IMG/VR virus record: IMGVR_UViG_3300048642_000020
Coordinates: 1 to 25,833 of that record
Reading direction: 5' to 3' (one strand)
DNA from: a virus
DNA: 25,833 nucleotides
Part shown: piece after piece, positions 9,213-25,752 of the stretch
Layout: each line of letters starts with the position of its first letter
Numbering within the stretch: the stretch's first letter is position 1
The notes under the pieces: generated by a model
What the model was told of the DNA's origin: nothing
The model's database searches: none
The model's input: the letters and a program-made list of their open reading frames with translations, nothing else
Program-made: the position numbers and the translations under genes

Positions 9213-9512
9213 CCCAGTCTCAAAATTGGTCCGGGATTGTGAGGGGGCACCTCCGATCCCAGCGTGCTCGCGTACCCCGTACCGGGTGCGTTGACGCGGG
9301 CGGAACGCGTGTGCATGTGCGGGTGCGACTCGCGTGCGTCAACGGGCGCGGACCGTGCGGGCCTACGTGTGCGGGCGTGCGATAGCTCCTCTGCTGCCGG
9401 TGGCTCAGGCCCTGGTGGCAGGGTGGGCGTAGGGCTGAGCGTGCGGCGGCGGGAGCGGGCATCTGTCTCCTCGCTGCGCCGAGGGTGGCCGTGGGCTGCT
9501 GGCGGTTTAATT
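9213..9512. other. Very GC-rich non-coding segment with long stem-loop
   Basis: No credible gene. The segment is strongly G-rich on the + strand. Bases 9289-9297 pair perfectly with 9336-9344, and 9305-9309 with 9331-9335, giving a 14-bp stem with a 7-base bulge on the 5' side and a 21-base loop. A second small hairpin CCCTG/CAGGG lies near 9409-9422. There is no T-run, so a simple intrinsic terminator is not indicated. It lies where late transcription should end. Confidence 0.5.
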
Positions 9513-9745: not shown

Positions 9746-9751
9746 ACCCAC

Positions 9752-9781
9752 TTGACAACGGCAATGGATGTGTGGCACAGT
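9752..9781 (+). promoter_or_regulatory. Host sigma70 promoter P1
   Basis: TTGACA at 9752-9757, an 18-base spacer and CACAGT at 9776-9781. The -10 box is weak, but the bases CAGTCCA that follow align with those of P2. A 6-bp hairpin (9788-9793 with 9807-9812) lies in the initial transcript. Confidence 0.5.
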
Positions 9782-9846
9782 CCAACCCATCGACACAGAC
9801 ATCACATCGATGACTGACCGATCGGATAGGGACGACACCCTACCGC

Positions 9847-9876
9847 TTGACAGGTAGGCAGGACATGCAGTACAGT
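9847..9876 (+). promoter_or_regulatory. Host sigma70 promoter P2
   Basis: Perfect TTGACA (9847-9852), 18-base spacer starting GGTAGG, and TACAGT at 9871-9876. Confidence 0.65.
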
Positions 9877-9884
9877 CCACCTCA

Positions 9885-9913
9885 TTGACACGTAGCTAGG
9901 TAGCTAGTAACTG
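9885..9913 (+). promoter_or_regulatory. Host sigma70 promoter P3 (weak)
   Basis: TTGACA at 9885-9890, 17-base spacer and TAACTG at 9908-9913. The -10 box overlaps the start of a perfect 7-bp inverted repeat (9911-9917 with 9934-9940). P2 and P3 are only 38 bases apart. Confidence 0.4.
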
Positions 9914-9964
9914 ATCCTCTTCAGGCTGTGCCGGGATCAGCAGAACGGACCACAAGGCTACGGG

Positions 9965-9993
9965 TTGACAGGTAGGCTAGAATGTAGTAGACT
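9965..9993 (+). promoter_or_regulatory. Host sigma70 promoter P4
   Basis: TTGACA at 9965-9970, a 17-base spacer starting GGTAGGC as in P2, and TAGACT at 9988-9993. A 5-bp hairpin (10009-10013 with 10021-10025) follows the predicted start. Confidence 0.65.
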
Positions 9994-10101
9994 GGCTACC
10001 AAGCAAGTCAGGCATGAGTCGCCTGGACCAGACAGTAGAGGGATACGATTGATTGCCTAGTGCATGACACTCATCCGGTATGCTGACGAGTCCTCCGCAG
10101 C

Positions 10102-10131
10102 TTGACAAGCGATAGCCGACAGTGCTACACT
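10102..10131 (+). promoter_or_regulatory. Host sigma70 promoter P5
   Basis: TTGACA at 10102-10107, 18-base spacer and TACACT at 10126-10131, preceded by TGC (extended -10-like). A small nested hairpin lies downstream around 10165-10186. Confidence 0.65.
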
Positions 10132-10195
10132 GAAGGCTCGAAGCTGTGGATCAGCGGTTGGGTACTCAGGCTCCCTTAGGGTTGAGCTAGGGTAC

Positions 10196-10224
10196 TTGAC
10201 AAGTAGGTTGGCATCTGTTCTAAT
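10196..10224 (+). promoter_or_regulatory. Host sigma70 promoter P6
   Basis: TTGACA at 10196-10201, spacer of 17 starting AGTAGG, and TCTAAT at 10219-10224. It is the promoter nearest the structured region, with a predicted start near 10231, about 520 bases before the first early gene. Confidence 0.55.
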
Positions 10225-10225
10225 G

Positions 10226-10735
10226 GATGCCATGACGACAGGGCCTTTGAAGCCCGTGTGACTGGATTAGTAGGTGGATGCGATGCTCACGCTTTATGCA
10301 CAGAGCTAGTGGATGCCGAAGTGATGGTCACTTGGTCACCGGAGAGTACATGCCGGACCCAAGGTGCAATGCTCATGACATAGACGTGAGGTGTCTGGAT
10401 TAGTACGCCAGAATAGCCAAAGCGGAATGGGTGTGAGAGATCCTAGCGATAGGATGGGTGGAAGCTGAGACGGTCATGCCTTAATGACCTGAGCGTAGGC
10501 CACCGACCCTGATGAACTCAGGGCTCAACACACAGAGGGTTAACCTCACTATCTGGTCCGCCTAGCGTGCTGTCTCTGGCCGCATGCTAGCCACCGGGTA
10601 GGCTTAGGATACCTCTCCACACTGCACGTAGCTTTAGGGTGCAAGGCGCGTAGACCAGCTAACTACTGGCCGCCACCAAGACCGGGCTACCTCACTCCCT
10701 GACTCTGTGTGTTGAGCCCTGCGCTTTGCAGGTTA
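10226..10735 (+). ncRNA. Candidate large structured RNA / early leader
   Basis: This gene-free stretch downstream of P6 holds many compact hairpins: AAGTGA/TCACTT (10319-10333), CTCATG/CGTGAG (10372-10390), TCTGG/CCAGA (10394-10412), ATCCTA/TAGGAT on a GCGA tetraloop (10440-10455), GGTCAT/ATGACC (10472-10489), CCCTGA/TCAGGG (10508-10524), a 9-bp stem with one G-U pair (10562-10570 with 10582-10590), TGCAC/GTGCA (10623-10643) and CCTGC/GCAGG (10718-10732). A perfect 19-bp helix pairs 10520-10538 with 10703-10721 and encloses a multi-hairpin domain. The base composition is lower in G+C than the flanking genes. It could be a stable RNA in its own right or a processed 5' leader; I cannot assign it to a known class. 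Confidence 0.5.
10520..10721. repeat. Perfect 19-bp long-range inverted repeat
   Basis: Bases 10520-10538 are the exact reverse complement of 10703-10721, with 164 bases between. The 3' arm ends 31 bases before the first early gene. As RNA it would make a helix long enough to be an RNase III substrate. Confidence 0.9.
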
Positions 10736-10752
10736 TCTGTTGAAAGCATCAC

Positions 10753-11286
10753 ATGAACACCTCCGAACTGATGACGGCAATCGACGCCTGGACCGCCAAG
10801 GGCAAGCAGTGGGCCGAAGAAGGCCACACGCTGGCTCTGTCGATCCTGGCCCACCACACGGAAACCGGCGACATCGGCCCGGTCAACCGCCTGCTGACCA
10901 CGATGCCCAAGGGCACCAAGCGGAATGCCATGGCCGAGTGGTTCCTGGCCTTCGGCAAGCTGTCGGTGACGGACGACAAGTCCCGCCCGATGAAGCACGA
11001 CAAGACCAAGGAAGCCAAGCTGGAAGACGCCAAGGCCACGCCGTGGTACGAGTTCCAGCCCGAGAAGGAAATCGTCGAGGTCTTCGACCTCCAGGCTGCC
11101 CTCAAGTCGCTGCTGGCCCGTGCTGGCAAGGCCACCAAGGTCAGCGATCCCGAGCTGTTCAAGGCCCTGGAAGCCGCCAAGGCCGCCGCCGAGGAAGCTG
11201 CCCAGAAGGCCGCCGAGTCGACCCAGCCCGAGACGACCGGTGACCCGCTGGCCGCGATCAGCGACCCGGCGACCCAACCCGCCTAA
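10753..11286 (+). CDS. First early protein, unknown function
   Basis: A 177-residue soluble protein, the first gene after the promoter array. Residues 1-75 are predicted helical and include KGTKRNAMAEWFLAFGKL, which looks like a conserved phage early-protein segment. The middle has a charged loop rich in Lys and Asp, then PWYEFQPEKEIVEVFDLQAAL. From residue 125 it becomes an Ala/Glu/Lys helix and ends in a Pro/Thr/Ala tail. No catalytic or DNA-binding motif is evident. The ribosome site is weak (GAAAG 6 bases before ATG 10753), and it lies just after the 19-bp helix, so structure may control its translation. Codon bias is extreme, suggesting high expression. In T7 this position holds host-takeover proteins, a role that can only be suggested here. 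Confidence 0.75.
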   Translation: MNTSELMTAIDAWTAKGKQWAEEGHTLALSILAHHTETGDIGPVNRLLTTMPKGTKRNAMAEWFLAFGKLSVTDDKSRPMKHDKTKEAKLEDAKATPWYEFQPEKEIVEVFDLQAALKSLLARAGKATKVSDPELFKALEAAKAAAEEAAQKAAESTQPETTGDPLAAISDPATQPA

Positions 11287-25098: not shown

Positions 25099-25752
25099 AT
25101 GACTTTCAAGATCGGCGACCGCGTGCGTCGCACCAGCCATCCGTACAGCAACAACAGCGGCTTCTCCATCTTCCCGGGTGATGAGGCCACGGTGTCCCAG
25201 GTCCGAGCGCATGACGGATCGCTGATCTTGGAGGGCATGCTGTCCGGTTCCTGCGACGACCGGTACTTCGAGCTGGTCAGCAAGGCCAAGGCCAAGGTTC
25301 TCGGGGTGGAGGTGGACCGGAAGGACACCAACCCCAAGCAGGCTGTCGGCGAGACCCGCATCCCGCTGCACCTGATCCCCGACGGCGCCCTTGCCTGGGT
25401 CGCCATGGCGTTCTACGAGGGCGCCACCAAGTACGGGGCATTCAACTGGCGAGTCGCTGGCGTGCGTGCCAGCACGTACATCGCGGCGGCTCGTCGCCAC
25501 ATCATGAAGTGGTGGAACGGTGAGCGGGAAGACCCGAAGACCCGCGTCCATCACCTCGCCAACACCATCGCCGGTCTGATGATCCTGCTGGACGCCGAGA
25601 TCCAACAGATGCTGGAAGACGACCGGCCGCCGAAGCAGAAGATCACCGACCTGTTCGACGAACTCCAGGGCGTGCAGAAGTTCCTGACGGAAGCTCACGC
25701 CAACCTAAACCCCAAGCATGCCACCGAGAAGGACCAACATGCACCCCGCTGA
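25099..25752 (+). CDS. dATP/dGTP diphosphohydrolase-like protein (MazG-related)
   Basis: A 217-residue protein with AAAGGA before ATG 25099. Residues 1-62 resemble a small KOW/SH3-type domain (FKIGDRVRRT, GDEATVSQVR). Residues about 75-180 match the DUF5664 pattern, annotated in Pfam as dATP/dGTP diphosphohydrolase N-terminal domain: NPKQAVGETRIPLHLIP, AFYEGATKYGAFNWR, YIAAARRHIMKWWNGE, HHLANTIAGLMILLDAE. These helices carry the acidic and His residues of a MazG-like fold that hydrolyses nucleotides to monophosphates. The family is common in phages and some members (MazZ) supply the 2-aminoadenine pathway. The N-terminal fused domain is unusual, to my knowledge. Confidence 0.65.
   Translation: MTFKIGDRVRRTSHPYSNNSGFSIFPGDEATVSQVRAHDGSLILEGMLSGSCDDRYFELVSKAKAKVLGVEVDRKDTNPKQAVGETRIPLHLIPDGALAWVAMAFYEGATKYGAFNWRVAGVRASTYIAAARRHIMKWWNGEREDPKTRVHHLANTIAGLMILLDAEIQQMLEDDRPPKQKITDLFDELQGVQKFLTEAHANLNPKHATEKDQHAPR

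Follow-up and report, generated by a model that had tools for sequence, protein, structure and literature searches.

The locus and its promoters

The window, the whole stretch of 25,833 bases analysed here, is a virus record with a T7-like gene set comprising terminase, lysis, primase, helicase, DNA polymerase and exonuclease genes, and the phage is phiKMV/Kalppathivirus-like. Positions 10226-10735 form an untranslated leader, preceded by tandem host promoters and followed by the first early gene. That gene (10753-11286, plus strand) encodes 177 amino acids assigned to phrog_1448, function unknown; it belongs to no Pfam family, and a profile of its relatives matched no solved structure. An earlier note on this DNA had described the region as free of genes, and no open reading frame of at least 60 amino acids is indeed found on either strand from about 9880 to 10687. 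The note had also held that the composition differs from that of the flanks. The difference is present, with a G+C content of 53-59% against 63-73%, but the drop already begins near 9750 and spans the promoters. Near the other end of the window, Pfam recognises a dATP/dGTP diphosphohydrolase domain in 25099-25752, and the label that PHROGs gives there, an endolysin inhibiting RNA polymerase, is probably misleading.

Six TTGACA boxes stand in a row at 9752-10196, upstream of the first early gene. Five belong to sigma-70-type promoter-like sites on the plus strand (9752-10131, with TTGACA at 9752, 9847, 9885, 9965 and 10102) that are directed into the leader, and those at 9847, 9965 and 10102 each score 10/12 in a promoter scan where 0.7 sites are expected. 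The last promoter-like site, P6 (10196-10224, plus strand), consists of TTGACA, 17 nt and TCTAAT, with a predicted transcription start near 10231. It was left out by the strict scan because of a C at position 2 of its -10 box.

Candidate signals for a phage polymerase accompany the leader. The sequence GCGGGCATCTGTCTCC at 9455-9475, about 250 nt past the last late gene, contains the ATCTGT of the T7-type RNA polymerase class II pause/termination signal, and ATCTGTT occurs again at 10213, overlapping P6, and at 10735, just past the last hairpin of the leader. In most of the relatives described below, and in the isolated Curvibacter phage P26059B, the context G-rich-[CT]ATCTGT is again present upstream of the leader, which suggests that the site at 9455-9475 is the concatemer junction. 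At least one ATCTGT copy lies inside the leader in most relatives; in P26059B five of the six sense-strand copies do.

Predicted structure of the leader in the window

The leader contains an inverted repeat, 10519-10537/10703-10721, which forms the perfect 19-bp helix announced in the earlier note. Within a span of 260 bases the 25.8-kb window has no second perfect repeat of more than 12 bp, and the longest perfect helix in 150 dinucleotide shuffles of the leader measured 12 bp. Its core of 14 bp, here called helix B, joins a 5′ arm at 10524-10537 (CUCAACACACAGAG) to a 3′ arm at 10703-10716 (CUCUGUGUGUUGAG) and encloses a folded domain of 165 nt (10538-10702). Immediately upstream lies hairpin A (10507-10523, CCCUGA-UGAAC-UCAGGG), delineated by folding and by comparison with relatives. 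The CCCUG at 10717-10721 that follows the 3′ arm has two possible partners. It can pair with 10519-10523, extending helix B to 19 bp, or from 10718 onwards it can enter hairpin C (10718-10732, CCUGC-GCUUU-GCAGG), which lies 20 nt upstream of the start codon and is matched letter for letter by hairpin C of the related contig L035. All of these elements, and those that follow, are on the plus strand. The extended helix gives the window a folding energy of -99.3 kcal/mol against -94.9 kcal/mol for A, B and C as separate elements, so that the extended form is favoured by 4.4 kcal/mol.

Further upstream, fold prediction places hairpins at 10241-10255 (GGGC-CUUUGAA-GCCC), 10440-10455 (AUCCUA-GCGA-UAGGAU, with a GNRA-type loop) and 10472-10489 (GGUCAU-gccuua-AUGACC). 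A long-range helix at 10286-10390, present in both the minimum-energy and the centroid fold, pairs CUCACG-c-UUUAUG (10286-10298) with CAUAGA-CGUGAG (10379-10390). The local hairpins that the earlier note had listed are thus recovered at their places, for instance at 10241-10255, 10472-10489, 10507-10523 and 10718-10732, as is its GCGA tetraloop (10446-10449, within CCTA-GCGA-TAGG). A direct repeat, CTGGATTAGTA, occurs at 10262-10272 and 10395-10405, and the CTGG of either copy can pair with CCAG at 10408-10411.

Folding energies divide the region. The 3′ part (10504-10737) has a z score of -4.9, with none of 200 shuffles as stable, and the middle (10404-10506) reaches -2.8, whereas the first 195 bases (10226-10420) carry no fold signal relative to shuffles (z +1.4) and the whole 527 nt attains only -1.6, with 7 of 100 shuffles folding equally well. 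The proposal of one large structured region therefore stands for the middle and 3′ parts and not for the first 195 bases or the whole.

No Rfam family matches the region at its gathering score, in agreement with the unassigned class under which the element was originally noted. The likeness to GOLLD or ROOL that was suggested at that time extends to their being large folded RNAs found in phages and is not supported beyond that: neither family is among the Rfam matches up to an E value of 10, and the nearby tRNA genes typical of GOLLD and ROOL have no counterpart, there being no tRNA in the window. Repeated GGAUG motifs raised the possibility of a sponge for CsrA/RsmA, which was rejected: GGA occurs 10 times against 10.4 expected and ANGGA 0 times against 2.4.

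A hairpin-helix-hairpin architecture in related phages

Exact copies of the region are found in only one other contig (L004-L006), and the window itself thus provides no sequence variation. A DNA similarity search with the leader in phage records returned matches to the first early gene only. Homologues of this gene and of the terminase gave access to leaders in viral contigs and isolated phages. In fourteen relatives, the closest being L076, the corresponding place is taken by a hairpin A that directly abuts a long-range helix B, which in turn directly abuts a hairpin C. In L076 these are CUCUACugaguGUAGAG (A), ACUAGGUGGCAGU/ACUGCCUCCUAGU (the two arms of B) and CCCUGCacuucGCAGGG (C). In the Kalppathivirus-like phages, which include P26059B, the order hairpin A, 5′ arm of B, a loop of a few to about 136 nt, 3′ arm of B and hairpin C makes up the last 70-200 nt before the gene. 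The element is kept before the first early gene in related freshwater phages while its letters change. A scan of about 347 kb for a flush hairpin-helix-hairpin, tolerating no more than a single mismatch or G-U among 12 bp, matched the leader in the window and in L013, L041, L038, L020, L019, L024, L059 and L076 and nothing elsewhere, all weaker matches having at least two defects. A processing element repeated throughout the genome was considered and rejected, the A-B-C anchor sequences occurring once in P26059B.

Helix B is 96% paired across 15 sequences including the window and L076 (158 Watson-Crick pairs, 15 G-U, 1 A-C and 6 others), and a double Watson-Crick change is seen at each of its 12 positions. 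The preponderance of G-U over A-C pairs, 15 to 1, points to a constraint on the sense RNA rather than on the DNA. This bears on the idea that a DNA-level feature of the genome end (a cruciform, or a signal for the phage RNA polymerase or for packaging) mimics RNA structure. Such a feature would suit a leader that follows the likely concatemer junction and has ATCTGTT, the T7 RNA polymerase class II pause sequence, at 10735. The G-U bias speaks against it, as does the better folding of the sense than of the antisense strand in the Kalppathivirus-like relatives; this does not hold in the window or L076, where the strand comparison is uninformative since their helix B has no G-U pairs. The polymerase of phage VSW-3, a phage polymerase of this broad kind, ignores ATCTGTT (PMC9624206). 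Taken with these points, a DNA-level origin is highly improbable.

The 3′ arm and loop of hairpin A also pair with the 5′ arm and loop of hairpin C, a relation first hinted at by RNAalifold and then borne out by counts. In 13 relatives, with the window and L076 left aside, the resulting extended helix is 94.3% paired against 77.3 ± 1.5% when shuffled, and its covariation score is 0.590 against 0.238 ± 0.025. In a separate count the A:C extension is equalled in 0 of 5000 shuffles. These figures overstate significance in that the shuffle tests ignore relatedness, inner loops were trimmed and the arms, register and ends were chosen by the authors. In the alignment of the 13 relatives, changes on both sides are seen in 18 of the 22 pairs of the extended helix, and sliding the arms by one to three columns lowers pairing to at most 42%. 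The version with separate hairpins is 90.3% paired with a score of 0.493; stems of unequal length in the alignment depress the per-column counts for hairpin C, and by inspection every sequence has a full C stem. The comparisons accordingly support both predicted pairings, the extended helix and the separate hairpins, which are mutually exclusive at the base of B. The extended form corresponds to the 19-bp helix described above for the window and comprises about 22 bp in the relatives.

The covariation of the A and C loop positions would also be compatible with kissing loops atop helix B, forming a compact block to exonucleases and not a cleavage site. The pairing runs from the loops into the stem arms nearly unbroken, as one long helix would, and of the 5 loop-loop positions in the window just 2 form Watson-Crick pairs and 1 a G-U pair, a weak contact. 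Kissing loops are an improbable account.

The inner loop of helix B is modular. An insert of about 40 nt in this loop distinguishes the contigs L063 and L064 from each other, and other members share a conserved stem, CCGAANAAUNGU..CACNUAUGAUGG..GRGNC, with the compensatory pairs GCUC/GAGC, ACCC/GGGU and GCCC/GGGC. This apical stem module is common to Curvibacter-type and Sphaerotilus phages, and an exact pattern search for it found five viral contigs, all within the set of relatives. A bacterial origin of the motif was rejected after 0 matches in 84,980 genomes.

Upstream of A-B-C, the Kalppathivirus-like leaders contain a further domain of four helices, 93.7% paired against 72.0 ± 2.1% shuffled, with a score of 0.677 against 0.247 ± 0.031. 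Its parts include P1 (GGC/GCC), P2 and a long-range pairing GUrGA-UUGUG../..CACAG-AA-UAC with an unpaired GA/AA step. The covariation in relatives that the earlier note had named as a check is thus strong for A-B-C and extends to this upstream domain in the Kalppathivirus-like phages. In P26059B (L069) a second stretch of about 650 nt without an annotated gene, 35440-36095, directly follows the first early gene.

Two covariance models were built from these leaders. R1, for A-B-C, finds the element before the first gene of the Sphaerotilus phage SnaP-R1, which was absent from its training (E 0.0036), a check independent of the chosen arms and ends. R2, for the upstream domain, finds L072, likewise absent from training (E 5e-12). 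Neither has a match in the window leader at E up to 10, and profile HMMs built from the relatives' leaders also have none there; R1 in addition misses or barely finds the relatives with long inserts, L041, L013 and L056, and is for that reason a weak test of whether the window belongs. The Kalppathivirus-like leaders and that of the window share their position, the order A-B-C, a helix B of about 14 bp and the A:C extension. They differ in that their sequences are unrelated, the window escapes both models and it lacks the apical motif CCGAANAAUNGU..CACNUAUGAUGG. Judged by sequence comparison, the A-B-C architecture is common to the window and its relatives, and membership of the window in the R1 or R2 family is unsupported by the models. 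By eye, the first 195 bases of the window's leader show in the same order GGGC/GCCC at 10241, a possible counterpart of P1; GGAUUAG and CAGAAUA; and CUCACGcUUUAUG/CAUAGACGUGAG, with the helix at 10286-10390 as a candidate P4. Since R2 and R1 miss the window, these correspondences to P1, P0 and P4 are retained as a lead only.

Proposed processing of the early transcript

A-B-C is a real conserved RNA element, most economically read as belonging to an elaborate leader of a T7-like early transcript. The region has the anatomy of a leader continuous with the first early gene. In phage T7 the R0.3 site before gene 0.3 is an RNase III processing site. Like the present element it lies behind tandem host promoters with the first early gene next in line, and the T7 leader folds a hairpin there; in the window a long duplex lies directly before that gene, behind host promoters. 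By this analogy the leader may end in an RNase III-type processing site, the positional counterpart of T7 R0.3, with hairpins A and C capping the products; we give this reading a probability of about one half. Host RNA polymerase would make the leader from the tandem promoters as the start of the earliest transcripts. In the nascent RNA the 3′ arm of A and the 5′ arm of C would join helix B in one duplex of 19 bp in the window or about 22 bp in the relatives, a putative substrate of host RNase III, and a cut would separate the leader from the early mRNA. Each freed arm could then return to its own hairpin, with A sealing the leader at its 3′ end and C protecting the mRNA at its 5′ end, immediately upstream of the ribosome-binding site. 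RNase III favours duplexes of at least about 20 bp, so that the extended fold alone would be suitable as a substrate, and the retention of A, of C and of their mutual pairing could all be accounted for by this single scheme of cutting and refolding. Unlike T7 R0.3, the window and its relatives have a long-range helix that encloses a few to 165 nt with modules, two flush hairpins able to pair with that helix and further structure upstream. The 165-nt domain within B and the 280 nt upstream exceed the needs of a simple site and count against the processing-site reading.

An alternative is a stand-alone phage RNA of about 400-500 nt, comparable to the large ornate RNAs. Such a stable molecule, once freed from the early transcript, would act in trans or serve as a scaffold early in infection, and B and the hairpins would do no more than trim its end. 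The covarying four-helix domain of the Kalppathivirus-like phages is needless for a simple processing site, and the exchangeable modules in the loop of B, one of them conserved in sequence between Curvibacter-type and Sphaerotilus phages and present in no bacterial genome of the collection, fit such a molecule. No clear terminator lies between leader and gene, however, and the upstream part of the window has no fold signal, is unmatched by R2 and, with the rest of the region, has no Rfam match. A stand-alone RNA is for these reasons rather unlikely. It is also doubtful, if a little less so, that these leaders constitute an undescribed family of large modular RNAs that T7-like phages of Burkholderiales make first in infection, in which the element is cut and caps both products and the freed leader is functional.

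The two exclusive pairings also recall an attenuator. Segments 1:2 and 3:4 (hairpins A and C) and 2:3 (the extension) are all kept by compensatory changes, as expected if the alternation between A/C and the extended helix, with C as terminator or as a control on the ribosome site, governed how far the first early gene is read through or translated. A terminator scan lists C, at 10718-10732, as its one weak terminator-like site. In the stretch scanned 1.4 such sites are expected by chance, however, the stem of C is 5-6 bp and its T run (TTATCTGTTG) is poor, and the extended fold is the more stable by over 4 kcal/mol, with no known ligand. A regulatory switch is thus unlikely, and less probable than a stand-alone RNA.

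Judged by Rfam 15 and the open papers searched, in which nothing was found on this RNA, the family in Kalppathivirus-like phages appears to be undescribed. The early leader of T7-like phages is often dismissed as a promoter region. Here an RNA architecture is kept by compensatory change across phages with unalignable leaders, drawn from the isolate P26059B and from metagenomes, and early mRNA processing outside the T7 model becomes testable. R1 and R2 supply covariance models of two domains missing from Rfam, and the freed leader, if stable, would rank with the earliest phage products to appear in the infected cell.

The flush hairpin-helix-hairpin was not found in the leaders of the Pseudomonas, Acinetobacter, Providencia and Aquamicrobium phages that were fetched, some of which have other long helices. 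In phage phikF77, positions 1564-1640, upstream of the first gene at 1654, contain a hairpin together with paired stretches. In Acinetobacter phage vB_AbaP_B5 (L098) two near-perfect long-range helices of about 20 bp or more, at 905-1193 and 1193-1408, each enclose one small early gene (B5_01 and B5_02).
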